NCBI GenBank assembly: GCA_021234155.1
Contig: JAJEKV010000217.1
Coordinates: 62,001-126,000, forward strand
Source of the DNA: Isoetes taiwanensis
Lineage: Eukaryota; Streptophyta; Lycopodiopsida; Isoetales; Isoetaceae
Direction: 5' to 3'
DNA length: 64,000 bases
In this document: piece by piece, positions 22,179 through 60,743 of the stretch
Layout of the letters: the number at the start of each line of letters is the position of its first letter
Position numbering within the stretch: position 1 is the stretch's first letter
The notes under the pieces: model-generated
Seen by the model: the letters and a program-made list of their open reading frames with translations, nothing else
The model's database searches: none
Told to the model about the DNA's origin: nothing
Position numbers and translations under genes: made by a program

Positions 22179-23424
22179 ATGGCCAATACCAAGACTGCCG
22201 TGGACCCCTCTACCCTCACCATAGTAGAGATTTATGCCCGGATCGTCCGGCATATGGCCACCGACCCTGAGTTGGTCGACATACTTCTAGATGAGCTAGT
22301 GAACAGGTTCGAGAACAACGACAGGATTCCTTACCCTATCTATCACTTCTCCGAGCCGTTCTTGATCCGGCTGAACCTCCGTCATCTCCCTTACACAGTG
22401 GCCGAACAACCAGACATGGTCATGATGCTGATCAAGTTCTATCCTCCCGAATGCGAAGGCCATACCGAAGAGGAGGACATACGAAAGGAGACCGATAATA
22501 TAAGGAACCTGGCCCGGGAGGATGATAAAAGGCAGATAGAGCGAGCTGATACAACAGCACGAGGAAGGGAATACCGGTACTTAGGGGATGGACTTGCTGT
22601 CATAGATGGCAGGGCAATTGAAATTCCCCCGTACCAATGGCATGAAGCGTCCCAGAGCTTCATGTGGGGAGGCCAAATTCCCGATTTCAGTCTGGATTAT
22701 TTAACAACAATCCAGATTGACATGGCCCAGAGACCCAACCGGTACCACGCTGAGCTTCTTCGCCGCAGTGTAGCGGAACATTACGCGCAGATTGAAGAAG
22801 ACCTTAGGAGAGCCCGGGAGATCCGGGAAGAGCAGGAGAGGATCCAGAAGGAGGAGGAGAAAGCCCGGCAAGAGCAGCCGAACCAGCAGGATGCAGGGGC
22901 ATCTGGGAGTGGATCGGGCCCAATCCCGACAGAGCATGTAACTGTGAAGCACCGGAGGAAGGGATTGGCTCACAAGTCCGGCAGTCAATATAAGGAGAAA
23001 TTAAAGACTGTCGGCGCTTTTGGTAAGAACGCGAGCTCCAGTCGAAGGCAGCAGCGGGTGGATCAGCCCCGACCAAATGTTGGGGACAAGACCGTGCCTG
23101 CATCAAGGGGGCCGCCTACCAACCCTGCCCCGCAACGGAAGCCTCACCGATATAGACCCGGCACCGTTGCATTACGGGAGATCCGTAAATTTCAGAAGTC
23201 GACCCAGCTTCTGATACGGAAGCTTCCCTTCCAGAGGCTGGTACGGGAGATCGCGCAGGAGTTCAAGACCGACCTCCGTTTCCAGACCTTTGCTATTTTG
23301 GCGCTTCAAGAGGCTGCTGAAGCCTATTTGGTGGCACTTTTTGGTGACGCCAATCTTTGCGCGATCCACGCAAAGAGGGTAACCATAATGCCTAAGGATT
23401 TAGCCCTCGCCCGTAGGATCATTA
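22179..23424 (+). pseudogene. Histone H3 fusion gene of the retrotransposon, 3' end split by element A
   Basis: Nothing in a retrotransposon normally needs this; role unknown. The open frame runs from ATG at 22179 through about 415 codons before the insertion. Residues about 323-415 are a near-canonical histone H3 fold: [16 protein letters not shown], then [19 protein letters not shown], then [20 protein letters not shown], covering alpha-N to the end of alpha-3. The first residues, [12 protein letters not shown], faintly resemble an H3 tail (MARTKQTARKST). Residues 14-75 are a helical, acidic-hydrophobic region resembling two free-standing proteins of locus B. Residues about 200-240 are a charged coiled coil, followed by a basic linker. 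Element A begins at 23425. If element A and one TA copy are skipped, the frame rejoins at 37013 and stops at 37033-37035, seven codons later, the right place for an H3 C-terminus. The frame otherwise has no stop, so the gene was recently intact. Confidence 0.88.
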
Positions 23425-23451
23425 GGGCGGATTTGGGGTCTGAAAATGGCC
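23425..23451 (+). repeat. Left terminal inverted repeat of element A
   Basis: 27 bp, exactly complementary to 36984-37010. It lies in what would be the last codons of the H3 fusion gene. Confidence 0.93.
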
Positions 23452-23935
23452 CTTATCTTGGGCTAAAGATTTCCCGCGTCGATTCGCCGGGGACCAATCG
23501 GGGTTTGGCGCCTTTTTACGAAAAGTCGCAAGATATTACTTGGGGGTAGAAGGATGAGCAGGCTTACTTGGCATCCACATGGCGTATTTTCATAGGGGAT
23601 GCCTGCGCTTTTATTGCAACCATTTTAATGGCCCGTATTTTTCGAGAGTCGCCACGCCCAAAATAATGGTGACTTTGACCTTCTTGTCTTGCGTCACCAA
23701 CTCCCTTGTCAAATTTTGGCGCCAAACTTCATCTTTGTCACTCCGGCCTCTCGTGCATCCTCTCGCCTTCACTCCTCATCTGCAATCCATGTCTCCTGTA
23801 ATTTACGTGTTCTTGCCCCATTTCTGAACTCCCAAGGTCAAAAGTGGGAGGTTTTGTCTCAATAGGTTAGGTGGGTGAGTATGCTGCCATCAACGGGGCG
23901 AGCATAGAGTTAAGCGACAAAAAAGCGATCAGGCG

Positions 23936-24154
23936 ATGCGGACACATTGGATAGGTAGGATAAAAGAGTTCAAGTTGAATTCTAGCGGTAGGAAAGTGGA
24001 AAGTATAACAATACGACATGCATATACCCCTTCCGATATGGCCAAAGAGCTAATCTCCACCAAAAACGGCTTCCCAAAATTGCCCGCAAATGGTAACCAC
24101 CTTAAACGGATCACCACGACCTTGAAGCTAGCTGTCGCCTACTTAACTGCGTAG
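23936..24154 (+). CDS. Small ORF of unknown function in element A
   Basis: A 72-residue frame starting MRTHWIGRIKEFKL and ending just before the first GCGTCGTGTGATC motif at 24164. The beginning (WIGRIKEF..., then SITIRHAYTPSDM) has a loose look of a BAH domain's first strands, but that is weak and could be chance. The stretch from 23452 to this ORF shows no other gene; its codon-like composition may hide a frameshifted longer gene. Confidence 0.3.
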   Translation: MRTHWIGRIKEFKLNSSGRKVESITIRHAYTPSDMAKELISTKNGFPKLPANGNHLKRITTTLKLAVAYLTA

Positions 24155-24163
24155 AGATAGTTT

Positions 24164-24177
24164 GGCGTCGTGTGATC
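24164..24177. repeat. GGCGTCGTGTGATC motif, single copy
   Basis: First copy of the motif family found throughout element A. It sits just after a small ORF and before the 24440-25084 cluster. Confidence 0.8.
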
Positions 24178-24439
24178 TTCTTATCTTTTTATTTCTTTCG
24201 TTGACACGTGTTTACAAACAAATTTATTGTGCGGGGTTTATGTTTATCGGGCGTCGTGGATGTCATTCGGCCGAAAGTATTAGTAGTGTACTTGTTGGTG
24301 TATCACATAGACATCGGAATTGTCCTTTTCCAAGGTATGGATGCGTGACCTTGCGGGGTATAGGCATCTGGTTTTCTGGACATGATTATAACGTAAAGGT
24401 CAGGAAACCGAGCTTGAGGCGGTTGAATTGCCCCTTTAA

Positions 24440-25084
24440 GTGAACTTTGTAAGCCAGACTAATGAGAACAATGTAATTGCAATGAAGAAATGCATGGCTG
24501 GACGAGGTGCAAGTGGGAATGTCCGAAAACGGAGGCGTGAGGATGAGTTTCAAAATCTTCACACCGCTTTGAGGTATTTGCTAACATATTCCGGATGGAT
24601 AGAAGTTCGAAAAGCTCAAGACATATCGTGCTTTCTCCCCGCCCGATTTTGTGGATGACTTATTTTTGGTTCCGACACAGGATGTTCGATTCCACCTAAT
24701 CATCCGGTCAACTAATGAGGTCAGCGTAGTTAAGTCCTCCTTTAAGTTCAGATACTTTCTTCCAAAACAATATTTATACGTTAATTGTCAACTAGAACGA
24801 AGGAAAGCGAGAAAAAGAGAGGCTGCACAACTTTTGGGAGCCGTTTGAGGACCATAATAGACACTCCATGCGGTGGATATTCGAGTATGGAGAGGGGAGG
24901 AAGTCATTTATCGGCCACCATGGAAAGTTTAATGGCCATTATCGAGCTAAGAGTGCTAATGGAGACAGAGGAGATTCTTGGCGACTTCCATTATTTTATT
25001 GATGGCATTAGGGTTGGTTATAGGCAAGAGGGAAATGTAAAGTTTAGTGAGTTCGCGATCAACAAGAAATTGTCTATCGGCTAG
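24440..25084 (+). pseudogene. Frameshifted unknown gene in element A
   Basis: Three overlapping short frames look like one broken gene. They read from a basic segment (GNVRKRRREDEFQ, near 24510), through LVPTQDVRFHLIIRSTNEV (near 24670) and FKFRYFLPKQYLYV, to a segment ending GDFHYFIDGIRVGYRQEGNV (near 25000-25040). I do not recognise the family. It lies between the first motif copy and the H3-like pseudogene, in the same orientation. Confidence 0.35.
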
Positions 25085-25266
25085 CGCTTTGAATCTCGGT
25101 TTTTATTTGTGTTTTTGTCTCGATGTTTTTAGGGTTCCGTATTTTGTCCGATATTTTTTAGGGTTCATTACAATTATTTAAAAATGTTACCATCATATTT
25201 TACTTTAACTTCTATTTTTACTATTTATCTCTTGCCGGTTGTCTATTTTTGTCAATTTGTTCGTAG

Positions 25267-25273
25267 TATAAAG
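25267..25273 (+). promoter_or_regulatory. Possible TATA box of the H3-like gene
   Basis: TATAAAG lies 21 bp before the ATG at 25294. This is close for a TATA box, so the transcription start would fall near or after the ATG unless spacing differs. The same 14-mer TATAAAGCGCCATCC recurs at about 34272. Confidence 0.35.
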
Positions 25274-25293
25274 CGCCATCCATTTGAGAAGCC

Positions 25294-26163
25294 ATGGCAA
25301 GAACTAAGCAAACCGCAAGGATCCATCCGGTGGTGTAAGGCCGGTGATTACATTAGTCCGCCTTCTTCATCGACTCAAAGTCTCGATAGAGATTCTCCTC
25401 CTCCGACCATGCCTAACGAAGACCGGAAAAAGAAATCCGCATGACAGATCAAGGGAGAAGCAGCCCGGAGTAAGTAGGGAGGTGCACTCCTGCCGGGAGA
25501 CAGAGGATGAAAATGTGAGAGACTGGGCGAGCGTAATATGATGCCGGATTAATTATTGGGCAGCCGCCTCTTTGCTTCTTTTCCTGCCTCCCCCGTTCTC
25601 CCCGTGGGAGGTGCCAGACCTTCAAATCAAAGGAGGAGGCCCAACGCCGAAAAGGGAAGGCGCACCAGGAATGTGGGAGACGGGCGGGAAGAGTCCGCCG
25701 AGGAACGGCTACCGCAGATGCTTTGGGAGGAGGCGGCGGAAGAGTCTGGGCCGAGCAACAGGCTCCAAATGCCGGGTGGGTGAGGGTAGTGGCGGGAAGC
25801 GGAAGACGAAGCTCAGTATTAAAAGCCATGCGAGATTAAGAAGTATCAGGAAGATAATCGAGATGGTCATTCCGTCTCCCATTTGCAGGTGCTCGAGAGA
25901 GATTCCCCGCAAGAGTGTGGTGCGATACATCATACCGATTCATGTAATTCAAGCAACGCCTAAATGCTCTTCAAATGGCTTCGGGCGGTTGGTGTCGGAT
26001 CTGTTCGAGGACTCGCAGACTTTGCAGCAATACATGCCAAGCGGGTGTTGTCATGCCCAAGGACATGCGCCTCGTCTTACGCATAAGGGATCCCGAGTAC
26101 TATGGTCAAAATTTTATGGCTGAATACAACAAGAAGAAAGACCCCCCAGAAAAAAGGCCGTGA
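25294..26163 (+). pseudogene. Histone H3-like gene of element A, canonical tail start, frameshifted
   Basis: The start encodes MARTKQTAR, identical to the first nine residues of canonical H3 (including the K4 position). A one-base shift then gives RKDPSGGV, similar to the RKSTGGK stretch. A long low-complexity basic linker follows (25340-25790), not found in normal H3. The histone fold is visible in alternating frames at 25800-26110. It has a MREIKKYQ-like helix start, LPF and ARE residues of alpha-1, ALQMAS (ALQEAS in H3) near 25970, a CAIHAKRV-like stretch near 26030, then MPKDMRLVLRIRD near 26060. It ends at a TGA at 26161-26163 after a short charged tail. At least three indels and one stop break it. 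The pattern 'H3 tail, long insert, H3 fold' is the same as in the chromovirus copy. Confidence 0.75.
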
Positions 26164-26302
26164 AGTGCCTTTGTGTTTTTTTCATATGTATAATATTTCT
26201 TAATGCAATGGCTTTATAAGCTTAATCTCTTAGTCCATTTCTTTCTTAGAAGCCTAGCTTCGCACTTTGTATTTATTTTTTTTTTTTAATGTTATAACGT
26301 GA

Positions 26303-26370
26303 GGATCACACGACGCTGCACAAGCATTGTGCTTTTTGTTGCACATAGTAGTCTCGGCGTCGTGTGATCC
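26303..26370. promoter_or_regulatory. Inverted pair of the element A motif
   Basis: GGATCACACGACGC (26303-26316) is followed 39 bp later by its complement GCGTCGTGTGATCC (26357-26370). It lies between the end of the H3-like gene and the start of the WY gene. It could act as terminator hairpin, regulator-binding pair, or both. Confidence 0.8.
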
Positions 26371-26397
26371 AACCCTAACCCTAACCCTAACCCTAAA
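26371..26397 (+). repeat. Short telomere-like repeat (AACCCT)4
   Basis: Four AACCCT units plus AAA follow the motif pair directly. They are the six-base type, not the seven-base CCCTAAA usual in plants. At this length they need not derive from a telomere; they may be a telo-box-like promoter element for the next gene. Confidence 0.7.
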
Positions 26398-26524
26398 ATG
26401 TACGGACAAATCTCCCCACAACGGCCGTGGTCCCCTTTCATAATCGACAACGGCTACTTGAGTTCAAAAGTGACGCCCCATTTACGGCTCCTAAACATCT
26501 TCTTGTTTTGCGTGGTTTGCCGCC

Positions 26525-27920
26525 ATGGATTGTTATGTGAAGTTCCCGGAATGGTATGCATCCGCCCCTCATGACAACGAGGAAGTTCGCCCGACTGCGA
26601 TTTATCCGTTCTATTGCAAGGAGTTGGACATCATGGCAAACAGTAGCGAGCTTGGATGCTATCGCGAGGTTGCTTTAGCTTTCACCCGGACCGCTTGGTC
26701 TCGGCCAAGACGCCCTTTGCGAGATGTCCCTGCTCGTGGATTCCAAAACCAGCTCTAGAGGAGGCGGCTTCCCATTTGCAAGCGGGGAAGATGTTTTCAA
26801 GAATCTTTGCGAACGGGCTCCTCCTGGCTGCGTCCTTGTGCTTAAGAAGGTATCTTATTTCTCTTTGCCGTTTGCATTTGCTAGTTATTGCATTCTGCTC
26901 GGCCAAACCGAAGATACACTGGAAACAATGAAATCTTTAAGCCAAGGGGGGTCAGTTATGTGTGATGATGCTGACTATGACGTAGAAATGGAGATAGATC
27001 TACAAGAAGAAGAAGAAGAGCAAGAATGTAGGAGTTTTAGCTTCGACGCACTGGCCTTGGGTGAACCAGAGGAGGGAGATGATTCTGAAGGTGATGAGGA
27101 TGGGGATGAGGATGAAAAGAAGTTGTCTGACATAAGGCCAATTTTAGTGGAAGGCAAAGAATACTTATTGCTAAGTGATATACTGAGGAACCCGTCTTTG
27201 TTACGAATGTGTGCTAGGGAAGACGAGCTTATCAATTACCTTGGCGAATGGGTAAACTTAGGCCTAGATTTTGAAGAGGATTTGGACAAAGAGATGTTTG
27301 AAGTATCTAATTATACCGGCAATGCTATAAAGCTTAAAGAAGCATATGAGAGGCTGGAGTCTCGATTTGCTCAAGATGAGGCGAATCTACCAACGAAAGA
27401 AGAATTCCAAATCTCGTGCAAAGCTGCCAACAGGATCTCTGGTTTGGCGGGCCCTTGATCAATCGCGAAAAGCATAAGCACAGTAGATGAGGATAAATGT
27501 GAAGAAGATAATCTTGAGGGTTCTTATTTGTGGGAAGTAGATGATTTTTTCTTGCCGACATGCACGCGAGGGGACGGGGAAAGATTGAAGGACTCTACAT
27601 TGTTAAGATATATCTCAAGATTCGTTAATGGGGAGATAATCGTCTTGGCGAGAACTTTCGGTCCAAAGGGTGCGCGAGTTTGTCTATTGCCTCCGTGCAT
27701 TATGCATGTTCGGGAACCATTCCCAATTGGCATCAAAAACCGAAAGGGTGATAGCAATTCGGTAGGGATGTTGTGTTACAATATTTTGGCGACCAAGCGG
27801 TCTGCTTGGGCGAGCAATATGTTAAATTTTTTAGCTGCTGGCTTGACTCACCCAAGGTTGGAAGCTGGGGTCGATAACATGGAAGTCATTGCCTTGTTGG
27901 ATCGGTCTTGTGGGGATTGA
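26525..27920 (+). pseudogene. 'WY' gene of element A (homologue of a gene in the chromovirus), frameshifted
   Basis: Unknown function. Three frames join into one broken gene. 26525-26758 begins MDCYVKFPEWYASAPHDNEE and includes YPFYCKELDIMANSSE. 26724-27458 is strongly acidic (EEEEEQE, SEGDEDGDEDEKK) and includes VEGKEYLLLSDILRNPS and LGEWVNLGLDFEED. 27528-27920 includes LLRYISRFVNGEIIVLARTF. The same three blocks occur in the same order in the chromovirus gene at 37241-38636. There they read IAWYHDGEQ with PLLCQCLDLLANMQ, then a GQEYLLLDDIIGLITWWLDLG stretch in a shifted frame, then LTRFFLSAFRHGQVLFIGRD. The homology is by eye but covers the full length. The gene follows an inverted motif pair and telomere-like repeat. 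Confidence 0.55.
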
Positions 27921-28052
27921 AAGAGCATGAAATTGACGACGAAGCTTGAGAAATTGGAAGTTATATGTTTTCCAACTTGTATCGGTAAAATTATTTATGT
28001 ACAGATTGTCCTTCCGAAATTCCTAATAAAAATTATTTTATTTGTATTTATT

Positions 28053-28117
28053 CACATCACGCGAAATACATCATCCGATTTTTACGTCATATCTAGGTTT
28101 TTCGGCGTGGTGTGATA
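28053..28117. promoter_or_regulatory. Inverted pair of the element A motif
   Basis: CACATCACGCGAAAT near 28053 pairs with TTCGGCGTGGTGTGATATC ending at about 28119. Diverged copies. Located after the WY gene. Confidence 0.6.
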
Positions 28118-28170
28118 TCTATCTCGAAGAAATGAAATATTATTGGAAAAAGACAATTAATTTATTTATT

Positions 28171-28217
28171 CCTCACACGATCGAGAAGCAACTTCGTGTG
28201 ACTCATGTTATAAATAG
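28171..28217 (+). promoter_or_regulatory. Motif pair plus TATA box upstream of coiled-coil gene 1
   Basis: CCTCACACGATCGAG (28171) and its rough complement CTTCGTGTGAC (28192) lie just before a consensus TATAAATAG at 28209-28217. The ATG is 86 bp further on at 28303. The same layout precedes coiled-coil gene 2, which suggests a shared regulated promoter. Confidence 0.7.
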
Positions 28218-28302
28218 AAGACCGATGTCCCACTGACCTCCGATCGCCTTCCGCCTTACGCTCATCTTCTACTTCCGGCTTCCGCCTTCCACCTTACGCT
28301 CG

Positions 28303-28681
28303 ATGGCATCATCATCTTCCTCTAGCAAGCGACCACGCCAAGATAGCACTCCCCAGCCCCCAGAGCTGCCCGTGGACATCACCCTTGCAGTGGTGATGAA
28401 GAGATTCAAGGAGATCCATGATGAAAACAACCGTCTCGTCGCCGAGAACAATGAGGCGGTCGACAGATTAGCCTTCACGAGGGAGCTGCTGCACGAGCGA
28501 GACGTTGAGCTCGTGGAAACATTCGCCATGTACCAAGAGGCGGCGAGCCGTGAGAGGGCGGCGGTTGAAACTGCTCACATGATTTCGCGAGGCCTTAGAA
28601 GATATGGAGAAGAAGCTCCGAGCTGCGGAGGATGATGAACGCGACCTTCACGGCAGGCTGCAGGACATGAAAATCAGCTAG
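28303..28681 (+). CDS. Coiled-coil protein gene 1 of element A
   Basis: Starts MASSSSSSKRPRQDS, a Ser-rich and basic N-terminus that could be a nuclear localisation signal. Then comes a heptad-rich helix including VVMKRFKEIHDENNRLVAEN. The plain frame ends after about 110 residues at 28635. A one-base shift near 28590 would extend it (DMEKKLRAAEDDERDLHGRL) to about 28680, keeping the coiled coil. It is the best preserved of four related genes in tandem (28303, 29265, 30248, 31109). It is likely nuclear and oligomeric; function unknown. Confidence 0.6.
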
Positions 28682-28830
28682 AGGATCATGAAGATCCCTA
28701 GCCGTTGTAGCTAGAGGATCATGAAGATCCCTAGCCGTTGTATCTATCTATTTTTTGCTTCAAAGAAAAGTTTTCTCTATTTTTTGCTTCTATCTATCCT
28801 GTTGTTCCAATGTATGTTCTGTTTTATTAA

Positions 28831-28901
28831 AATATCACCACGGCCTTGAAATGCCTTGCTTGCAATTAGGTAGCAATCAATGGATTTCGCGTCGTGTGAT
28901 C
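28831..28901. promoter_or_regulatory. Inverted pair of the element A motif
   Basis: ATATCACCACGGCCTTGAAAT near 28832 pairs with ATTTCGCGTCGTGTGATC ending at 28901. The bases between (GCAATTAGGTAGCAATCAAT) are the same as between the pair at 29714-29780, so the whole unit is duplicated with the coiled-coil gene. Confidence 0.75.
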
Positions 28902-29064
28902 TCCATGCCGTTCTATTTTGCTTCAATGAGAAGTTCTATCTTTAGTTATGTATCAGTAAAATTACTTATGTATAGATTGTATCACCGAAATTATCAATAA
29001 AAATTATCACACGAGCTTTCTCTTGGAAGAAAAGGCGTTAGAAGAAATAACGGTCCTTTTTCCT

Positions 29065-29162
29065 CACACGACGGCCGAGAAGTAACGGTCGATTTTTTCC
29101 GACCCACGGCATCCTTGGCGTCGTGTGACTCAAGCTACTACTGAAATCCACGTTATAAATAG
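29065..29162 (+). promoter_or_regulatory. Motif pair plus TATA box upstream of coiled-coil gene 2
   Basis: CTCACACGACGG (29063) and GGCGTCGTGTGAC (29117-29129) precede TATAAATAG at 29154-29162, with the ATG at 29265. The text around the TATA box (CGTTATAAATAGAAGAC) matches that of gene 1. Confidence 0.75.
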
Positions 29163-29264
29163 AAGACTTTCTATCTTGCCTTCGACCTCCGATCCTCTTC
29201 CGCCTTCCGCCTTCTTACGCTCATCTTCTCCCCTTCCGCCTTCCCGCCTTCCGCCTTCTCCTCG

Positions 29265-29640
29265 ATGGCATCTTCATCCTCCTCCAGCAAGCGACCGGCG
29301 CCCCGGAAGCTGAACCCGCGGACATCACCCTTCTTTGTGGTGATGAAGAGATTCAAGGAGGTTCCACGAAAAACAACCGTTTACCGTCGCCCAGAAAGAT
29401 GGAGGCGGTGGGCGAGTTAGAATTCACTAGGGGCTGCTTTGCATGGCCGAGACCTTGAGCTCGCAGCAACATTAACCCAGTACCGAGAGGCCAATAGCCG
29501 AGGAGGGTCGGCGATTTTAAGCGCACACAATATTTCGCGGCGCTAGAAGATATGGAGAAGCTTCGAGCTGCGGAGGATGAGAAGCGCGGACTTTAAAATG
29601 GCCTTCTGGGGATCATGAAGATCCGTAGCCATTGTATATA
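29265..29640 (+). pseudogene. Coiled-coil gene 2 of element A, degenerate
   Basis: Starts MASSSSSSKRP and shares VVMKRFKE with gene 1, but frameshifts and stops break it within 40 codons. Nucleotide similarity to gene 1 runs through the 3' end (GGATCATGAAGATCC near 29608). It is a decayed tandem duplicate. Confidence 0.7.
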
Positions 29641-29713
29641 TATTTTTTTGTTTCAAAGAAAAATTTGCTCTATTTCTTGCTTCTATCTGTTCTCTTGTTT
29701 TGTTTTATTAAAA

Positions 29714-29780
29714 GATCACACGACGCGAAATGCCATTCTTGCAATTAGGTAGCAATCAATGGATTTCACGTCGTATGATC
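29714..29780. promoter_or_regulatory. Inverted pair of the element A motif
   Basis: GATCACACGACGCGAAAT (29714-29731) pairs with ATTTCACGTCGTATGATC (29763-29780): 18-bp arms with two mismatches and a 31-bp loop. Confidence 0.85.
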
Positions 29781-30151
29781 TCCACAACGTACACCTCGTT
29801 GTATGTATAAATTCATAATTTATTAATGGAAAAGTGTATGTAACACAAATATCTAGCTAGATTATGTGATAACTTGCAGGTAAATGCGAATTTGCATGTG
29901 GATGACAACGTCTATTCACATACGTGGCTTGTGGATGACAACATCATGCCAAGGACGTGGCATCTTGTTGCCACAATAACACTGTCTTTTTATGCGGCAC
30001 GCATACGATGCGGCTAGGATATAGCCGGATCCCATGATGCGAACATAGGCTACCGTTGCCTAATTGCATGCTATAATTTCGCCTCGTAGGATTATTACAC
30101 AACTTTATCGGATTTTCATAACCGTAGATTCCAGCGTATCTCTAGTTTTTA

Positions 30152-30700
30152 TATAAAGCGTCGGAGGCCTTTGTCTTCTCCTATCCGCCATCTTCTGTTC
30201 TACCACATCCGCCCTCAGCCATCACTCCTGTTCTCCCATCACTTTCAATGGCCTCAGCTCGGTTCCATCCTGCCCGAGATCTTGTCTCAAGTTTTGGTCA
30301 AGGAAATTGAGAACATTAGGCCGGAAGCGGAGGAGCGGATCCGCCTTCTAAAAAGAAAAAAAGAATGATGAAGGCGTAAGCCAAGCTGGTTGCGGCGGAG
30401 GAAAAGGCCGCCTTCTCTGGGGAGGTGATTTTAGTCTTGCGACAATCGGTGCGGGCTGCCTTAGACCGCGAGTGCGGCGCCCGAGATATAACCTCAAGAG
30501 AGGCTTAGGGCCATAATCGAAGCGGGAGAGGCTGCGAGCCCAACTTTCGATGGCGGGAAGATAAGGTTGCGGAATATGAGAAGCGTGGTTGCGGGGCGGG
30601 GCAATCATGTTGGAGGAGCGAGAAAAAATTATCAACGCCCTCGGGAAGAGCTTGCCCGGCGATCATAGGCATCGGGCTCCTCCTAGAGGGCCGTTTTTTT
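30152..30700 (+). pseudogene. Coiled-coil gene 3 of element A, degenerate, with TATA box
   Basis: TATAAAG at 30152-30158 precedes ATG at 30248 (MASARFHPAR...). Charged helix-like text is scattered over several frames up to about 30670 (for example KEIENIRPEAEERIRLLKRK near 30300). Position, spacing and composition match genes 1 and 2, but sequence identity is low. Confidence 0.4.
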
Positions 30701-30812
30701 TTTAATGTTTGTAATTGGTTTTATTTTTCAATGGGAAAAGTTTTTTGACAAATGTGCGAATATTACGTTTCCTATTTTTAATTTTCAATATCCGTGGTAG
30801 AGAATGACAAGG

Positions 30813-30880
30813 CAGATCACACTGGCGAAACCCTTCATAGGGTTTTAAAGCTCGTGTCTGATTCAGCGTGGTGTGATATC
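30813..30880. promoter_or_regulatory. Inverted pair of the element A motif
   Basis: CAGATCACACTGGCGAAA near 30813 pairs with TTCAGCGTGGTGTGATATC ending at about 30880. Confidence 0.65.
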
Positions 30881-31108
30881 TGATGTAGTTAGAATAGTTA
30901 TTAATGTGTTCAGTGGACGGTACCATTAATGTGTTCTAGCGGACAACCGAGAATCCGCTTCGACACGTCGCGGCGGCAGCCGAAAGTGTGTTTAATATGT
31001 TCAAAGCTAATATGTATAAATTGAGGTCCTTGCATTGTGCTCCTTCCGCCCGGTTAGAGTCTTTGCTCCTCACTTCTATAATCTTAACGTCCCTCCCATT
31101 TGTCATCT

Positions 31109-31600: not shown

Positions 31601-31654
31601 ACATCTTTCACAACTTTAATCAAAAGTAACCCTTTTTATTATTATCTTGTAAAG

Positions 31655-52132: not shown

Positions 52133-53159
52133 GCTACACAAACCCAAGAAATATGCAAGTTTACCTCTTTAAGTCCTAAACTTGCTACTAAAATCTGAAT
52201 TTAAGACTTTTATATCCACACATCTCATCAATCTTTGCCAATTGTATGAGAAAATTATGTTATGTCAATGAAGGTATGAAAAGTACCTCTTACTTGATGC
52301 TTGAACATATCCTTAGAAACTGAAAAACATGGCTTGAGACCTTGTCATTAGAGGTTTGGTGGAGTCTATTAACGCCCTTGTAAGCCCTTCCCAAATTTGG
52401 ATTTTAGTTGGTACCCGAACCTGCAGGTATGGGCAAAAAGCCCCCACGAACCTTAACCGAACCTCAGCCCTGGAGCAATCGAATCTGGTAAACGTCATTA
52501 TTACTTGTTGTTTTACTCATTATGCCTAAAATCCCTCCTCCCCCCACCTTCCCACCGAACTGAAGCTACAAGGAGTAGCTTCGAGCGGGACACCTCAAGA
52601 ATGCCTCAATTGGGCGCCAAAGCTTTGGAGGGCATTTCGAATTTAGTTTTGATGTCAATCCTCGCCCAAATCCGAAGGAATTCTCTAGTTTTCCTTCGTA
52701 TTTTGGCAAAGAATTACATCAATTTGGTCAGCCGGATTTGTGGAGCTCTGGAAGCGATCGACGACTCGAATTCGATCTATGGCGGAGGTAGCTGTTCTAT
52801 TAATTTCAGGCAATGACAATGAGTAATTCTTTTTGAATCTAAACCGAAAGGCCAATTCGGGTGGAGGTGCCCAAGAACTGCTTGCCCTACAAAAATCAAT
52901 ATAATGTCGGAAGGAGCAGTCGATGAGAATGCTCTTCGAGCTTCGGTGCAATGAATATTGATCTGCAAGCGTGGGGAATCTTGTATCCCATCGATCCGAT
53001 CACCAGAAGACATCCTGAATTTCATTCTCCATCGGGGCTTATTCATTTTGTCTGTAAGGGTAATCAAGGTCTGCTTGGCTATTGCAATAATATTTCAAGT
53101 AATTCTGATGTGCATTTGAGAACAATGTACAATCAATTGTGTGGAGTGCATTGCAATAT
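52133..53159. other. Region between the LINE tail and the locus B transposase gene
   Basis: Short frames only. Part of it may be the 5' end of the locus B element, but I found no inverted terminal repeat matching the right side (60740-60930), so the border is not known. Confidence 0.4.
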
Positions 53160-55462
53160 GATAATTTCTTAACCAACAGGTCTAAGAATACAGAAGAACT
53201 GCAAGCTTCCAATCAAAGGTTGCTTATGGAGGTGGAGTCACTTAAACAAGGATTGAAGATATGCTCTGAGGACAATGACAAACTGAAGAGGAAGTTAAAA
53301 AGACTGAAAATGACACCACTGGGCATGAGGGAGAGGAAAAAAGAACTGAAGGCCCTAAGTATACTTGCCCCTAGTGGTGGGGGCTCTAGAAGAAGAATCC
53401 ACGCTATTAAAAATCTGATGGATCCTACTATGGCTGAAAAGAAGAAGAGAAAACCTTGTAATATGGCTAGTTTGTTGAAAAAGCTTGTAACTAAAGATGA
53501 TGTTATAGATATGTTGAAGCTTCCTGGTTAACTAACCATTTAAGAAAAGCTGTTGTTGAACAGGTGCTTACTGAATTGGGAAAGAATCAAAGTGCTGATA
53601 GCATGCAAGAATTATGTGACAATGTGGGTATCAGTCGACAAGCTTACATTGCTCTCTTTAGATGTTTGCGGGGATTGTATCAAGCAGCGAGGGGTATTAC
53701 GAAGACCATCTTGCCAAGACTTCGGTTACATCGAGCAAGCGAGAACAAAAGAGGAATGCGTATACACAAACATTTGGGAGAGATGTACCGGATCACCACA
53801 TCCGTGCACTTGGGATCACTAATCTTTGGGAAAAGTAAGAAGAAGGGTGGCTCGGAAATGATCTATTTGTTCTTAATGAGAAGAATAATTGTTGGATGGA
53901 TCTCTCTAAAATGCTTCTTACATTAGTTCGCTTCTATGATATGAAAGTGGAAGAATGTGGAGGGAAACTCCAAATTGCTATAAAGTTGGATGAGATGGAA
54001 CTGATCAAAGGTGAAAAGTATGAAAGGGTTTCTTTGACATTAATGAATATGGCGTTGTCAAATTCTGATAATGAGGAAGGGAAGTTCTCTGTTCAATCAG
54101 AGGACCATATTTGGTGGATAGGGATATTTCAAAGTACGGAAGAAAATCATGGTGTTCTTGATTGGGTCTTTCAGTGAGACACCTATTCCTACTATTATTG
54201 CTGCTCATGGAGTGGGAGAGAAGCTTGGGTTCACGGCTCACGGAGATTACGAGGTTGAATGGCATTTGGCTGCTGATCTCAAAGACCATCAAGTGCATGT
54301 ATAACATGAAACATGGTTCTGGCAAGACTACCCACGCATGTCCTTACTGTTTGTATGCTAGGGTAGATGATAAGGTGAAGGGAATGAGTACTCTCGAATG
54401 TGACCGGGATCTTTGAACCAACGCGTGAGAAGGAGGACAAAACTTTGATCCCGTACTTGCAATTCTGTCGCGAGAGAGTACATATTTGCACTCTCCATGC
54501 CTTTCTAAGAATAGTGGATAAGATGGTGCACATGAGCATTCTTTTTGCTTGGAATAAGTCTCCACAATCAGCCAGAGAAAAGTGTATGAAAGATGTTGAG
54601 AACATGCTTTCTGATCTTGATCTTCATGGTGGTGACTATAAAATCTTGCAAGATCCTAAGAAGGGAGGCAAGGTTCCTTGTAAACCATCCATGGGTGGGG
54701 TGAAAGCGAAAAGATTTCTGCCTTGTACTAAATTACGTAAGAATGGATCATTGCCAACTGGAAAGTGGGAGTTGTAAACCATTCATGGGTGGGGTGAAAG
54801 CGAAAAGATTTCTGCCTTGTACTAAATTACGTAAGAATGGATCATTGCCAACCTGGAAAGTGGGAGGGTATAAGGACTTCTTTGGTAGCGAGAAGATGAC
54901 CCGTACTTTCGTGGGAGGGCAAAACTAAAGAAAATTAAAGCGTGGCGAGAATCCGAAAGCAGCACGGGTAACTTTGATGGCAGAGAAGAAAATGATGGGT
55001 GGAAAGTTAGATGAATTCAAAGTAGCAGTAACTGAATTCACGAAGTCGTTTATACAAGCATGGGGAGAATGCAATGTCACACATTACATTCATATACTTC
55101 ACGCCCATGGCTTGTGGTTTGCTAAAGAGTACGGGAGCTTGGGAATATGGAATACGCAGGGAATGGAGAAGTCACATAAGCAAGCCAAGAATGCTTTTTT
55201 CAGGTTCACACAACATCGAGGTTCGTGTGGTAACTCATTGCAACAGATGTGCCAATGGTTCTATAGAAGGATTATCTGCAAGCTAGAGAAAAAAGATGAA
55301 GCTAAACCGACCACGACGTTGGCTAGAATATTGAGGAGAAAAGTTGAGCAGAAAAAAAAAAACAGATATGGTGTAGCTCTAGTGGAGCGAGACAAGTTAA
55401 AAAAGTGGCGATCCACAAGGATCGACGGGGTAGAAGATATATACGGGGAATCAATTGTATGA
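53160..55462 (+). pseudogene. Putative DDE transposase of locus B (homologue of the element A gene), frameshifted
   Basis: Better preserved than the element A copy. In order: coiled coil (LLMEVESLKQGLKICSEDND, 53220-53290); TPLGMRERKKELK; NVGISRQAYIALFRCLRGLY near 53640; IAIKLDEMELIKGEKYERVS with candidate Asp at 53989; HIWWIGIFQS near 54115; GDYEVEWHLAADLK with candidate Asp at 54275; HACPYCLYARVDD (zinc-like Cys pair) near 54335; VHICTLHAFLRIVDKMVHMS near 54490; FIQAWGECNVTHYIHILHAH near 55060; and QGMEKSHKQAKNAFFR with candidate Glu at 55166. It ends basic, with stop at 55460-55462. At least five frameshifts and a 94-bp tandem duplication (54678-54866) interrupt it. Conservation with element A concentrates on the D, D and E blocks, as expected for a catalytic core. 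It is probably the mobility enzyme of locus B. Confidence 0.62.
54678..54866 (+). repeat. 94-bp tandem duplication inside the transposase gene
   Basis: TTGTAAACCATCCATGGGTG at 54678 recurs at 54772 with one substitution, and the copies differ by only a couple of bases. It is recent and frame-breaking. Confidence 0.92.
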
Positions 55463-55531
55463 ACAAATTCATATTAATGTATAACTATTGACCATGATGT
55501 GCAACTATAATGTTTCAAATATGTTAGGTTG

Positions 55532-55603
55532 GCAGCGTGGCCACGGTGCGAAAGCATTTGGTTTCCGTGGCTATCTTTGCCGTTTTCGCACGGTAGCAAC
55601 GGT
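55532..55603. promoter_or_regulatory. Two palindromic motifs of locus B upstream of the H3-like gene
   Basis: GCAGCGTGGCCACGGTGCGAAA (55532-55553) minus two bases of the perfect palindrome, and a diverged TTTCGCACGGTAGCAACGGT (55583-55602). The second ends a few bases before a TATATAA box at 55610-55616, with the ATG at 55723. Confidence 0.75.
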
Positions 55604-55609
55604 ACTCTT

Positions 55610-55616
55610 TATATAA
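55610..55616 (+). promoter_or_regulatory. TATA box of the locus B H3-like gene
   Basis: TATATAA, 107 bp upstream of the ATG at 55723 and directly downstream of a palindromic motif. This is the same order as before the element A coiled-coil genes. Confidence 0.55.
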
Positions 55617-55722
55617 TTATCTTTGTTATCGATGTTGTCTGCTTTTGATATTTGTTCTAAGTCATTACATTGCATATTTATCAATCTTGTCCACTCATTT
55701 GTTGCATTACAGTTCAGAGACA

Positions 55723-57058
55723 ATGGCACAGAATAGCGGTAATGCCAGATCTAACAATCCCAACAACCAAAGAACAGAAGAGAAGGCGCCGTCTGGGCGC
55801 ACACATCATGGTGAAGACAGCGAGGGCAGCGCCACTAACTATGTCAGTGCTTCTAACAACCGAGCGAGCACCGTCTTAGAGTTTAAAACATCCATCAAGC
55901 GGTGCGGACGCCAGTAGTTCAGAATGTTGCCAATGACGCAGAGGAGATTTTTAGAGACATACCTTACGAGCCAAGGCGTGTTTACCTGTTCTCTTCTGGC
56001 CATTTAGTCGGAGAAGGAACTTTTGTGCAGGCAACTGTCTGTCATGGAGTTCCTGTGCATGATGATTGCATCGTCGTTAACGTCGATGTGGTAGTTGCAC
56101 CAGACACGCAGTTGCCTGTTCCTTCGATGGGAGCTGACAACTTGCTTGAGGCACTCCATTCCTTCGTTGTGTGGCCCAGGTTGATGGCTTCTTTGGCGCC
56201 AACTCCTAAACACATTCTCTGTCTTGGCTAATGAGATAGATTACATCAGGACTTCCTCGTAGAGTGCGGAAGTTGGATTGGTGGAGATAAACCAGGGGCC
56301 AGACTTGCTTGGAGCCGACAATGAGAATGCTAAGCCCCATGAGGATGACCATCAGGATGTGCATGTCCGTAATGTTCTGTTCTTTGTTCGGAATGAGAAT
56401 GTGCCCTGCCCGTAACGTTCCTATTGCTGTTCGTAATGTATTTCAACCCCCGAATGTTATGTACGGTGGTGTCCCTATCCAGTCCCCGCGGACAGCTCAA
56501 ATCGAAGAAAATATCGTTCTACAAGAGGCAGCTGCAGTACCTGTGACGGTTGTACCTGAAACCGTAGTACCAGATGCAGTAGTGGTTCCTGTTGTTGAGC
56601 AGCCTTTAGAGGTCACGGAATCCAGTAGACGTAAGAGGAAGACTAAGCCTAAGCATCTGCAGAAGAAACAGGTTCTCTGTAAAGGCCCTCCTAAGCTGAA
56701 TAAGAAGGGCCAGCCGTTTAAGCAAAAGTTAAGATGGATTTGGGAAATCCGGCACTTCCAGAACCACGTGGAGTGGGTGCTTCCGAAGCTCACAATGGCT
56801 AGAATATGTAAGGAGGTGGTTCAGGAGAGATACACTAAGATGAAGAGGGATGGTGCAAGGTACCGGAAAGCTGGTTACCGTTTCTCAATGCCAGAAGAGG
56901 TGACTCGATTCACTGCAGATGCCCTTGATGCTCGCGACGAGGCGTGAGAATCACATGGTTGAGTTCTTCAAGACTGTGTGAAATGTGCTGTGCATTCCAA
57001 GAGAGTGACAATAATGAGGCAGGATATTGCCTTGACAAATTACTTCCGAGGCATGTAA
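55723..57058 (+). pseudogene. Divergent histone H3-like gene of locus B with DUF8039-like middle, frameshifted
   Basis: Starts MAQNSGNARSNNPNNQ, with Ala-Arg in the place of H3 A7-R8 but otherwise unlike an H3 tail. 55902-56231 resembles the DUF8039 domain seen in plant CACTA-associated proteins (VYLFSSGHLVGEGTFVQ, then VVNVDVVV, ending in the typical VVWPRLM). Then a Val/Pro-rich linker (56480-56620), a basic patch (RRKRKTKPKHLQKK) and a histone fold. The fold reads IWEIRHFQNHVEWVLPKL for alpha-1, RFTADALDARDEA for alpha-2 and, after a one-base shift at about 56945, CAVHSKRVTIMRQDIALTNY near 57040. It closes with FRGM and stop at 57056-57058. The CAVHSKRVTIM block is diagnostic of H3 ([11 protein letters not shown]). 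Two or three frameshifts are needed. Role unknown; perhaps a chromatin- or DNA-binding element protein. Confidence 0.72.
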
Positions 57059-57160
57059 AGTGTTTTATATTAATGAAACAATCTTTGTTGTATATTTTGT
57101 TTGCTTGCTAAGTATTTTGATTGTATCTATTCTCTATGTTTCTCTATGTATACTTACAAT

Positions 57161-57296
57161 GCACCGTTGCCACGGTGCGAAATGGGTATAAATTACTTTG
57201 TGAGGGCAAGTATTTTCGCACCGTGGCCACGGTGCGAAATTCCTGTAAGTTACTGTGTGAGGGCAGGCAATTTCACACCGTGGCCACGGTGCGAAA
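57161..57296. promoter_or_regulatory. Three palindromic motifs of locus B
   Basis: Copies at 57161-57182 (diverged), 57214-57239 (perfect 26-bp palindrome, half-site TTTCGCACCGTGG) and 57271-57296 (one change). They are spaced about 55 bp apart between the 3' ends of the H3-like gene and the next, convergent gene. A TATAAAT lies between the first two. Confidence 0.93.
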
Positions 57297-57433
57297 TTGA
57301 ATCATTCCATAGAAGGTGAATCACAAGATCAAAGGGAACATATTAACATGTTAGAGAATATATTAACATATTAGAGAACATTTAGAGAACGGCAAGTAAT
57401 GGCAGTATGTCCAAGTAACCTTCCCCTAGGTTT

Positions 57434-58018
57434 CTAACCTCTTCCCCTTCCCCTGCGAGGGGTAACCCCTTTGGTTGGGTTAGGAAACCAGAGCTCATGC
57501 GTATCCCAGCCTGATTCTTCCCACCATATGGGATACCTAGTCATTAGAAAAAGTAATTCCACATGATGATACTCATGGAAGAAGAGCGGACCCAACTCCA
57601 CAAAACCATTGTACTCGTTGTAGTACGCCCTAATAAGGCCATACATCTGTCCCTTACAAATTTCATGAATAAACTCTGATATGTATTGATCCAGAGAGTG
57701 TGCTAAATAACCAGCACGAAGAAGAGGCCTCAACTGCTGTAGCATCTCGTCCAGATAAGGAGGGGGTTCAAGAATTCCCCTCATTGCAAGCCTCCTATAA
57801 CATTCAGATGGATTGATTTCCATCAGTGGCTCATGATCACAATCAAATCGCTCCAGAATGAAGTTGATCAACTCCATTGCAAGCTCCTTGGTGGGACTGT
57901 GGTGCAACCTCCACTCCAAGAAATGGTCAAATAGCTCATCAGTTTCAGGCCACACAGAATGTCTGGGGCATGCTTACAGGCCTTCTGGAGTGGCCCAGGG
58001 AGGATTCGGTCCAATCAT
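57434..58018 (-). pseudogene. Helical protein gene 1 of locus B, nonsense codon near its start
   Basis: Paralogue of the gene at 58705-59271. The frame begins at the Met at 58018 (MIGPNPPWATPEGL), then has TAA at 57976-57974 exactly where the paralogue has Gln in EYLQACGR. The change CAA to TAA explains it. Downstream it is open to 57434: FDHFLEWRLHHSPTKELAME, LINFILERF, LEPPPYLDEMLQQLRPLL, LAHSLDQYI, then TRYPIWWEESGWDTHELWF. It ends with a basic Arg/Gly tail (TPRRGRGRG). Helical, probably not membrane-bound. The ELAMELINFILERF block resembles [15 protein letters not shown] in the N-terminal region of the chromovirus H3 fusion. A Met at 57955 could still start a 173-residue product. Confidence 0.6.
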
Positions 58019-58426
58019 TTGCAAAGAGCACGAAGATCAAGTAGCAAAGAACAAGGAGCACGAAGATCAAGTAGCAAGGAGCATCAAGATCAAGTAGCAA
58101 GAAGCAAGGATCAAGGATGATCAAGGAGCAAGAAGATCAAAAAACAAGGAAGATCATGGAGCAAGAAAGCAAGGAACAAGATCAAGTAGCAAGATCAAGA
58201 GCAAGGTACAAGGAAGACCAAAGACCAAGAAGTGAAAGCAAGGTGAAAACATGGAACAAAGGTGAGAAGTGAAAGCAAGCTGAAAGAATTTATAGCTACG
58301 AATCCAATAATGTTGAAGTATAATACTAATACTGTTGAAGTATAATACCAAGAATGATGAAGAATAATACCAATAATGCTGAAGTATTATACCATTCGGT
58401 GGTGGTAACAAAACGGGATCTGCGTA
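58019..58426 (-). repeat. Purine-rich repeats upstream of helical gene 1, and spacer
   Basis: At 58026-58240 the plus strand repeats AAGATCAAGTAGCAA and AGCAAGGA many times. At 58310-58390 a short unit (GAAGTATAATACCAA-like) repeats three or four times. No gene. A comparable purine-rich repeat lies upstream of gene 2 (59305-59430), so gene plus upstream repeat were duplicated together. Confidence 0.7.
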
Positions 58427-58510
58427 TTTCGCACCGTAGCCACGGTGCGAAATAGGCCCTTCAATAATTTGTAACTGAAGCGATTTCGCACCGTGGCTAC
58501 GGTGCCGAAT
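58427..58510. promoter_or_regulatory. Two palindromic motifs of locus B
   Basis: 58427-58452 (TTTCGCACCGTAGCC...) and 58484-58510 (TTTCGCACCGTGGCT..., one extra base), 57 bp apart. They lie between the two helical protein genes. Confidence 0.9.
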
Positions 58511-58704
58511 ATGACCACAAATAGAACAATCACATGAAAAAATACAAGGAAAATGGTAGAAGATATTACTGAATTACTTAATTACACGAAAATCACTTAA
58601 TTACACGACGATGTTACTTAATTACACGAAAATCACTTGCTTATATACTTAATTTCTATGAAAATCTTTATACCAGTTTATACACATATTCCAATGGAGT
58701 ATCT

Positions 58705-59271
58705 TCACCTATGATATGTACGTATTATGTGTTGTGTGCTATGTAGCCATAGGTCACGTGTATCCCAAGGAACTGTATCCCAAGTGGGGAATCTAGACAA
58801 TAACCACAGGATGTTGAAGTCAAGGGAACGGAATAGGAGCTTACCAATATCCACAAAAGATTTGTAATGGAAGTCGTAAAGTTCAATGAGGATATAAATC
58901 CTATTCTTCTCACTAGTAGGAATGACCAGAGGCGCATACTGATCCAGAGAGTAGGCCATGAAACCATGGAAAAGCATGTCCTTCAACTGTTCTAGCCTAT
59001 CTTCTAAATCTGAGGGGGGTTCAAGAAGTCCCAAAGCACTTAGAGTGAACCTTGCTTGACTCGAATTGATCTTCTCCAGTGGAGGGAGATGACGAGTATA
59101 GCGATCGATAATGAAGTTGATCAGCTGCCTTGCAAGCTCTGTGGTTGGACCGTGACGCCATCGATGCTCCCAAAAGTTGCTAAAAAATTCATCAAAAGTG
59201 CACGTATTTCTGCCGCATGCTTGCAGGTATTCCGGATCAGCCCAACGGGGATGTTCTTGCAAAGTTACCAT
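58705..59271 (-). CDS. Helical protein gene 2 of locus B, intact
   Basis: About 188 residues from the Met at 59271 (MVTLQEHPRWADPEYLQACG); an upstream in-frame Met at 59304 is possible. Blocks: FDEFFSNFWEHRWRHGPTTE, LARQLINFIIDRY, LGLLEPPSDLEDRLEQLKDM, FMAYSLDQYAPLVI, and LLSRFPTWDTVPWDTRDLWL near the end. It aligns along its whole length with gene 1 at 57434-58018, at low-to-moderate identity. The first half resembles residues about 14-75 of the chromovirus H3 fusion (LINFIIDRY with LLDELVNRF). No known domain. It is one of the few undamaged frames of locus B. Confidence 0.65.
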   Translation of the reverse strand: MVTLQEHPRWADPEYLQACGRNTCTFDEFFSNFWEHRWRHGPTTELARQLINFIIDRYTRHLPPLEKINSSQARFTLSALGLLEPPSDLEDRLEQLKDMLFHGFMAYSLDQYAPLVIPTSEKNRIYILIELYDFHYKSFVDIGKLLFRSLDFNILWLLSRFPTWDTVPWDTRDLWLHSTQHIIRTYHR

Positions 59272-59304
59272 TTGCAAGAAATTAGTGGAGCAGACAAGAA
59301 ACAA

Positions 59305-59620
59305 CTAGTGGAGTAGACAGGGAGGCAAGGAGCAGACAAGAGGCGGACAAGAGGGGGAAAGAAACAAAGAAGCAGACAAGAGGCAAGGAGCAAACAAGAA
59401 GCAGACAAGAGGGGGAAATTGGCAAAGACAATGAAGGCATAGATGCCTATTTAAAGAGAAATCAGGTATATATGCTATATACGTACATTATATTGGTGTG
59501 AATTATTGGTGTTCATTGCCATTATACGAGTACCATACAAGTATGTATATAATCCAATAATTTCTATGCATATACCATCAATAATTTTGGTGGGTACATA
59601 CCATCAATAATTTTGGTGGG
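59305..59620. repeat. Purine-rich repeats and AT-rich spacer
   Basis: GCAGACAAGAGGCGGACAAG and GCAAGGAGCAGACAAGA-type units repeat between 59320 and 59420. This is followed by an AT-rich stretch with two copies of CCATCAATAATTTTGGTGGG (59576-59620) leading into a TATA box. Confidence 0.75.
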
Positions 59621-59628
59621 TATAAATA
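59621..59628 (+). promoter_or_regulatory. TATA box before small gene 1
   Basis: TATAAATA at 59621-59628, 45 bp upstream of the Met at 59673. Confidence 0.6.
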
Positions 59629-59672
59629 TACATCAAATTGCCGAGTGCAGCAACATTGGCCTCCATCTAGCC

Positions 59673-59921
59673 ATGTGGTCTCATTCTGGTCCTGAACGTG
59701 ATTCCATTACCTGCAAGATGAATCACGAAAACTTCAAGCAGTGTCGTGAGCGAGAAATACCCATGGAAGACTGGATGACCACTGCCGCTCTCAATCCTCG
59801 CTATTATCCTGATCCCTCCGATGTTATCATCCATCTAATATGGAATAGAGAGCATCAAATGTACATGATAGAAAAGATCACTGGGGTGCCTGGTGACAAT
59901 GACTCAGAAGAGTCCCCCTAA
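59673..59921 (+). CDS. Small protein gene 1 of locus B
   Basis: About 82 residues from MWSHSGPERDSITCKM; an upstream Met at 59613 is possible but falls before the TATA box. Key blocks: DSITCKMNHENFKQCRERE, IPMEDWM, IIHLIWNREHQMYMIEKITG. Paralogue of the next gene. The chosen start aligns with the paralogue's start. Function unknown; it ends acidic (DNDSEESP). Confidence 0.6.
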   Translation: MWSHSGPERDSITCKMNHENFKQCREREIPMEDWMTTAALNPRYYPDPSDVIIHLIWNREHQMYMIEKITGVPGDNDSEESP

Positions 59922-60047
59922 ATCAATACTTGTCATCTGGATCATATTGTCAATACTTATTTGAAGAGTTCATGATCGTGTATTTTGTACATTATGCTCG
60001 TATATATAACCAATAATGCTACAGTGCATGTCAATAATTTTGTTCGA

Positions 60048-60053
60048 TATAAG
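60048..60053 (+). promoter_or_regulatory. TATA-like box before small gene 2
   Basis: TATAAG at 60048-60053, 41 bp upstream of the Met at 60094. The spacing is like that of small gene 1. Confidence 0.45.
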
Positions 60054-60093
60054 TACAGCTCCATTCATTCAATGGAGAAGGCATCCATTTGCT

Positions 60094-60363
60094 ATGTCTC
60101 GGCCTGGTTATTCTTATTACAGGGGGTCGACCTTGTCTATAGACTCCATTACTTGCACTATGAAATATAATGATCTTTATAGATGTTCTCAGAGGGGTAT
60201 CCCCCTTGATCCTTGGCTGGAAGGAGTAGCAGAGGGTCGAAATCATTCTTCCAACGGGGTTTATCGTGTTGTTATCCACCTTCATCGGGTTCCAGAGCGT
60301 CACGTCTATGAGATTAATCGCATCACTCAACTACCTGCTCATGATGATCCCGATTGCGAATGA
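60094..60363 (+). CDS. Small protein gene 2 of locus B
   Basis: About 89 residues from MSRPGYSYYRGSTLSIDSIT. It shares DSITC, a (C/R)SQRGIPLDPWL block, VVIHLHRVPERHVYEINRIT and an acidic end with small gene 1. The two are tandem duplicates in the same direction, diverged but both open, which argues that the protein is, or was until recently, under selection. No known domain. Confidence 0.6.
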   Translation: MSRPGYSYYRGSTLSIDSITCTMKYNDLYRCSQRGIPLDPWLEGVAEGRNHSSNGVYRVVIHLHRVPERHVYEINRITQLPAHDDPDCE

Positions 60364-60545
60364 TGCTATGCCTCTTATATGAGTTCTAAATTCTGTTACT
60401 AGAATATTTCAGAGATTCGCTAGTTATAAGTATGTAACCATAAGAGATAGATACATATGATCCATCTATTTACCGCACATTTTCAATTTGGAAAGCTCTT
60501 GGCCATTTTCCTTACATGTAGATTCTAAATTCAGATAAGCATTCT
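60364..60545. other. Short spacer after small gene 2
   Basis: No gene was recognised. It leads into the last palindrome cluster. Confidence 0.5.
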
Positions 60546-60743
60546 TTTCGCAGTGTGTGTGGTCACGGTGCGAAATTGTACACTCCAAAAACGTTGGAAC
60601 TGCTATTTTCGCACCGTGGCGACGGTGCGAAATAGACCTTCCCACAGAATGTGGAATAGTCATTTTCGCACCGTGGCCACGGTGCGAATATTGGTTAGTT
60701 GTAAGCACAGACAACACGGTCTTCGCACCGTGGCCACGGTGCA
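60546..60743. promoter_or_regulatory. Four palindromic motifs near the right end of locus B
   Basis: Copies at 60546-60575 (diverged), 60607-60632 (one change), 60664-60689 and 60722-60743 (nearly perfect palindromes), again about 57 bp apart. The element border should lie soon after, before the LINE at about 60880. Confidence 0.93.

Follow-up and report, generated by a model that had tools for sequence, protein, structure and literature searches.

Histone H3-like genes in a chromovirus and at two RAG1-like transposase loci of Isoetes taiwanensis

The window analysed here comprises 64,000 nucleotides of Isoetes taiwanensis (Lycopodiopsida; assembly GCA_021234155.1, contig JAJEKV010000217.1, positions 62,001 to 126,000 of the forward strand), and all coordinates are counted from its first base. 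It is dense in mobile elements, and three of its loci carry a gene related to histone H3: a chromovirus-type long terminal repeat (LTR) retrotransposon, designated A, whose H3 gene is called cH3; a DNA transposon, B; and a third locus, C, without mapped ends. Each of the three is known here from a single copy in the window. According to the original prediction, made from the letters alone, three different element types may repeatedly exchange a module consisting of H3 and partner genes, or may form a lineage of histone-carrying elements.

Both strands were scanned, allowing for frameshifts, with a plant H3.3 sequence as query; H3 matches on the plus strand had scores of 454 (23020-23432), 132 (25750-26099), 93 (56857-57052) and 64 (56615-56824). 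The noise level of the scan was set by six locally shuffled windows (top scores 56-65) and by the top unrelated real region (21282-21434; score 68). The match scoring 64, the weaker half of the H3 of C, is therefore not significant on its own. With H4, H2A and H2B the same scan reached 57, 57 and 55, compared with 59, 51 and 50 in one shuffle; H3 is thus the only core histone seen. All scores and identities to host H3 given below refer to this query and to the other reference sequences (H3.1 and the centromeric CENH3, HTR12).

A chromovirus with an H3 gene and the transposon inserted in it

The features of A and B are as follows.

19585..21390, plus strand: 5' LTR of A (LTR alignment; right edge approximate)
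22179..23422, plus strand: cH3 of A, orphan N-terminal region and H3 core (open reading frame (ORF), Pfam, PDB; 3' end cut by B)
37013..37035, plus strand: 3' end of cH3 beyond B (empty-site join)
37238-37720, 37947-38636 and 38820-39320, plus strand: three additional orphan ORFs in A, located between cH3 and gag (ORFs)
39560..40994, plus strand: gag of A, with at least one frame change (ORFs; weak Ty3_capsid and zinc-knuckle matches below the cut-off)
40995..44345, plus strand: pol of A with reverse transcriptase, RNase H, integrase and chromodomain, open throughout (Pfam, ORF)
44936..46508, plus strand: 3' LTR of A (LTR alignment; right edge approximate)
23425..37010: B, a 13.6-kb DNA transposon (flanked by TA at 23423-23424 and 37011-37012; terminal repeats GGGCGGATTTGGGG...)
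25294..26163, plus strand: decayed H3 of B, tail start 25294-25343 and core 25750-26099 with a gap of about 400 nt (tail match, scan; end approximate)
26724..27920, plus strand: gene or genes of B without assigned function (ORFs)
28237..31575, plus strand: duplicated genes of B with common intergenic repeats (ORFs, self-comparison; a coiled coil is an impression only)
31805..33880, minus strand: RAG1-like transposase gene of B, broken frame (similarity to C; ORFs; weak Pfam RAG1 match, E=0.024)

Element A is a Ty3 chromovirus: between the LTR pair lie RVT_1, RNase H and integrase domains followed by a chromodomain (Chromo, E=7.2e-8), and behind the 5' LTR, at about 21402, there is what we take to be a tRNA-Met-like primer binding site. 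Four orphan ORFs, all in one direction, are located between the 5' LTR and gag. The first of them is cH3; the other three gave no match in Pfam. A DNA transposon nested around this block of ORFs was considered and rejected, the longest inverted match being 10 bp. Mismatches between the two LTRs (19585-21390 and 44936-46508) are concentrated in short patches, with long stretches of identity between them, a pattern suggestive of errors in base calling or assembly. Base accuracy is therefore doubtful, and apparent frameshifts in the window have to be read with caution.

Of the 456 codons in the cH3 frame (22179-23549), about 414 are those of A itself; the others extend into B. The H3 domain occupies approximately 23079-23420. 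Residues 301-414 match Pfam Histone with E=1e-40, and the top PDB match over residues 289-414 is 7ux9_E, a chain named Histone H3.3 (E=9e-51; second match 8e-50), so that the predicted presence of an H3 gene in an LTR-bounded element is borne out. The core is complete from alpha-N to alpha-3, with 83 of 95 positions identical to H3.3 and 81 of 95 to H3.1 (scores 424 and 414, as against 254 to CENH3). It retains C110, H113, D123, L126 and I130, which we take to be H3-H3' contacts.

The tail of cH3 is different. In the HMMER alignment, which is loose in this region, K9, K27 and K36 face arginine, K14 faces D and K18 faces P; K23 and K37 are retained. No ARTK start was found in frame, and cH3 does not possess a canonical modifiable tail. 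A weak tail-like match in another reading frame at the start of the H3 part (23020-23115) is perhaps a remnant of the original tail. About 290 residues precede the H3 core, and a search with residues 1-300 found no homologue among 3827 candidates. A search with the H3 part of cH3 (residues 270-430), limited to proteins of comparable length, gave 5019 matches; no transposon fusion was recognised by name among the 120 listed, and the names were mostly those of histones or uncharacterized proteins from animals and plants. A structure model of cH3 built from the single sequence was poor (mean predicted local distance difference test score 43) and was not used.

B interrupts cH3. It is delimited by an inverted repeat with 33 of 33 positions matching (23419-23451 and 36984-37016). 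TA flanks both sides of the termini GGGCGG..CCGCCC, but the perfect repeat extends further outward (TCATTA..TAATGA). Among 13 models of the ends, within 6 bases either way, a 2-bp match was found in the TA model, the AT model and two inner models, a 1-bp match in one, and a match of 3-9 bp in none; TA is the likely target duplication. The borders are thus fixed to within a few bases, and in every end model the H3 gene of A is interrupted. When the flanks are joined in the TA model, the cH3 frame ends with ARRIINEGGEHP and a stop codon, near the usual end of H3. An H3 protein usually terminates in ARRIRGERA. Because B is nested in cH3, two of the three H3 genes are neighbours through a single insertion. 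The H3-carrying B sits a few bases past the conserved end of another H3 gene, a single case that may reflect chance or target preference.

The H3 of B begins with an exact MARTKQTAR tail start (25294-25320), and its core (25750-26099; scan score 132) is frameshifted. Since it lies inside the inverted repeat, the claim of an H3 in a DNA transposon stands as well. A donor-like GTAAGG follows the tail start, and about 400 nt (25320-25750) separate it from the core. This gap may be an intron, in which case the gene would have been captured from DNA and not from mRNA. Pfam gave nothing for the genes at 26724..27920. Part of the right end of B recurs inside the element (34548-35034 versus 36534-36992, 82-98% in blocks), and a 20-bp motif resembling TTCGGCGTGGTGTGATATCT occurs four times, mostly between genes (24161, 28101, 28885 and 30862). 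It is possibly the counterpart of the palindromes of C described below.

Locus C and the transposase shared with B

Locus C comprises the following features.

52905..55462, plus strand: RAG1-like transposase gene, broken frame (29 homologues; fold; start approximate)
55720..57055, plus strand: H3-like gene with N-terminal extension (core about 56660-57055; its start, placed before 56291, is guessed by reading across a stop codon)
57434..57973, minus strand: WY gene copy 1 (paralogue of copy 2)
58705..59304, minus strand: WY gene copy 2 (paralogue of copy 1)
59640..60363, plus strand: two small paralogous genes (32% over 71 amino acids)
55531..60743: palindrome CGCACCGTGGCCACGGTGCG, nine copies with 0-2 mismatches, in four intergenic places (1, 3, 2 and 3 copies)

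The H3 of C was detected by tblastn with E=4e-10 at 56291-57055, and the stronger half, scoring 93 in the scan, exceeded the shuffled windows, which confirms the third predicted H3. The joined fragments matched 175 distinct PDB sequences at E<=0.01 (top 1.2e-10); among the 60 of these that were listed, 59 were named H3 and one 'Histone domain-containing protein'. The scores were 139 to CENH3, 135 to H3.1 and 129 to H3.3. As in CENH3, there is an EIRHFQ motif, a loop 1 longer than that of H3, and MRQD. The parent of this gene may thus have been either CENH3 or H3.

The 'WY gene' of the original prediction was taken to be the two minus-strand genes, which are paralogues (42% over 151 amino acids). 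The nine copies of CGCACCGTGGCCACGGTGCG compare with an expectation of 0.00. Tandem Repeats Finder also reported a 57-bp tandem array within C and a 94-bp tandem duplication within its transposase gene (54678-54866).

The search for the ends of C found no TA-flanked 14-bp inverted repeat (with up to 3 mismatches) between 50.2-52.9 kb and 60.36-61.3 kb. When the scan was relaxed to 2-bp duplications and extended to 63.9 kb, four pairs appeared, each with 3 mismatches; they lacked flanking TA, and we took them as chance. We infer that the right end may have been cut by a DUF4283-type element at about 60.86 kb: a 708-codon open frame (61116-63242), whose DUF4283 match is borderline (26.8 bits against a cut-off of 27.2), abuts C and is probably a long interspersed nuclear element. 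C is adjoined by another element, a hAT (47540-52009), which has DUF659 and dimerisation domains, an 8-bp duplication (CATTATAT) and a 12/12 terminal repeat. This hAT was rejected as carrier of the H3 of C, which lies outside its ends.

The transposases of B and C are related, with 54 of 128 residues identical in the C-terminal part and 36-43% identity in the three strongest of the other pieces listed. Fold comparison of the family revealed a RAG1-like catalytic core. The link to RAG1 was seen by this comparison only; a sequence profile found nothing in the PDB at E<=10. In an alignment of 25 family members the first aspartate (D411) is conserved in 22 rows (1 N, 2 gaps), the second (D508) in all 25, and C528 and C531 in 23 and 24, respectively. 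At E785 there are 3 glutamates and 22 gaps. The C(2)C motif between the second D and the E reads CPYC in C and is not intact in the broken copy of B. Both B (31805-32458) and C (54929-55462) show HxxxxH followed by QGMEKSH, corresponding to H(3-4)H before the last E, a region before which most of the 25 rows stop or at which they misalign. The family has a homologue in Klebsormidium; no relatives were confirmed in IMG/VR or in the prokaryote genome collection.

On these grounds we assign the two transposases to one RAG1/Transib-fold (CMCT), ESTA-like family. The ESTA/CMCT transposons of rust fungi, which carry TET/JBP cargo, resemble B and C in the C(2)C and H(3-4)H motifs of a RAG1-like transposase and in epigenetic cargo, and would resemble B also in a TA duplication (PMC12730594). 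The likeness is one of motifs; here the cargo is H3 instead of TET, and the element B is 13.6 kb long. The transposase core fold is common to B, C and RAG1/Transib, but Transib makes 5-bp duplications (PMC4411706), whereas B shows none longer than 2 bp in any of the 13 end models, and B was therefore rejected as a Transib proper. With one and the same transposase family in B and C, and no ends mapped for C, the notion of three different element types has to be given up.

Proposed separate captures of H3

Could the three H3 genes be ordinary host genes, or retrocopies, that lie by chance in a transposon-rich region? The canonical tail at the start of the H3 of B would suit this, but we regard it as barely credible: the H3 of A is located between LTR and gag with an N-terminal extension in frame, that of B lies within perfect terminal repeats, and in that of C an extension precedes the core.

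The three genes have diverged strongly from one another and are not recent mutual copies, as had been predicted. The scores between elements were 138 (A-B), 123 (A-C) and 79 (B-C), while the scores to host H3 were 424 for A, 168 for B (H3.3) and, for C, 135 (H3.1) or 139 (CENH3). Each H3 thus scores higher to a host H3 than to that of another element, a pattern more in line with separate captures than with exchange. The argument is one of scores, since by identity the margin for C is small: C is identical to H3.1 at 37 of 97 positions, to H3.3 at 34 of 83 and to A at 33 of 77.

The genes demonstrably in common are only H3 (A, B and C) and the transposase (B and C), and the original claim that partners are shared in pairs is confirmed for the transposase but not for the WY and other genes. 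In 3 of 104 cross-element pairs of other genes, 1 of 500 shuffles reached the observed score; 10,000 shuffles gave 27, 32 and 50. None of these pairs survives correction for 104 tests, and half a pair would be expected by chance, so there is a slight excess and weak homology is not excluded. The order of genes also differs between B and C. An exchangeable module, in spite of the shared H3 and transposase and the slight excess of partner matches, is consequently very improbable, and independent capture of H3 by A, B and C appears to be the simpler reading.

Possible use of an element-encoded H3

We tentatively favour the view that A and transposons of the B/C type each captured a host H3 and kept it as diverging accessory cargo, not received from one another, and that its most likely use would be interference with chromatin. 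This is plausible without being probable. We only infer its functional part, i.e. expression, nucleosome incorporation, targeting and anti-silencing. In cH3 an N-terminal region specific to the element precedes, in frame, an H3.3-like core. This core appears to retain the surfaces for H4 and for H3-H3' pairing, and is of the replication-independent H3.3 type. The element-made H3 might pair with host H4 and enter nucleosomes, preferentially perhaps on element DNA by means of the added N-terminal part. K9 and K27 (also K36), the lysines targeted by transposon silencing in plants, face arginine in cH3, and H3 of this kind in nucleosomes could dilute silencing based on H3K9me2 and H3K27me1. The effect would be comparable to that of the anti-silencing proteins VANC of VANDAL transposons (not known to be histones) or of the TET cargo of fungal transposons. 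VANC acts through repeats in noncoding regions (PMC10398659), and the intergenic repeats of C are similar in placement; VANDAL elements are likewise plant transposons with short noncoding repeats and accessory genes. It is also possible that element DNA is wrapped or disguised by H3, as originally suggested.

Several observations weigh against this view. The H3 of B retains a canonical tail start including K4, so loss of the tail is not general. The H3 genes of B and C are frame-broken, and only one copy of each element is available. The poor model of cH3 leaves its N-terminal region without a known fold or DNA-binding role. The palindrome of C is absent from A and B, and nothing ties the repeats to the H3 proteins. 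The three weak partner matches, finally, leave room for some common ancestry.

The broken frames might be expected if H3 had been swept up by passive transduplication and copied with the elements without being used. In hAT elements of Pseudocercospora fijiensis all captured H3 copies are inactivated (PMC6710886). This explanation is doubtful but a serious possibility. Against it, the cH3 frame, which includes the N-terminal extension, stays open as far as the point where B is inserted, H3 alone of the core histones is seen at the three loci, and the broken frames of B and C may in part be sequence errors, as the clustered LTR mismatches suggest. That cH3 is open over its own roughly 414 codons, beside an open pol, is as expected of a kept gene.

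Alternatively, element proteins carrying H3 could act as a tether that keeps the complex for integration or transposition at nucleosomes and directs insertion, with no part in silencing. A chromodomain reads histone marks, and A encodes one in its integrase; moreover B was inserted within an H3 gene. However, a single insertion is an anecdote, and none of the H3 proteins is fused to integrase or transposase. We consider a tether improbable.

The favoured view, capture followed by interference with chromatin, could be extended to plant transposons of unrelated mechanism, each with a designer H3 specific to the element family: an H3.3-type core with arginines in place of silencing lysines, which would be targeted by its N-terminal region to the noncoding repeats of the element and replace host H3 there. 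This is unlikely. If true, it would parallel VANC anti-silencing by means of a histone, with H3 and repeats evolving separately in every element family.

Mobile elements are already known to have captured genes for DNA methyltransferases and for TET enzymes, and H3 has been captured by hAT elements of fungi. The hAT transposons of Pyrenophora tritici-repentis carry H3, with copies showing tail insertions and variable helices (PMC3538342), and together with those of P. fijiensis (PMC6710886) they resemble B and C in having captured H3 as DNA-transposon cargo. The carriers here are instead a chromovirus and RAG1-like transposons, and the H3 of A is joined to an orphan N-terminal region. Gypsy retrotransposons of Klebsormidium nitens carry Dnmt3 (PMC5890265) and are similar to A in being LTR elements with a captured epigenetic gene in a plant lineage; their methyltransferase lies in the Pol ORF, whereas the H3 of A lies upstream of gag. 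No plant transposon with H3 turned up among the papers listed by our literature searches, made in a library with few subscription papers.

With a plant LTR retrotransposon and plant RAG1-type transposons as carriers of H3, two further element classes would join those in which histone capture is known. The RAG1-fold family of B and C, with its homologue in Klebsormidium, bears on the history of the RAG/Transib lineage. An H3 encoded by the elements themselves would make it testable whether they counter silencing by supplying the nucleosome itself.

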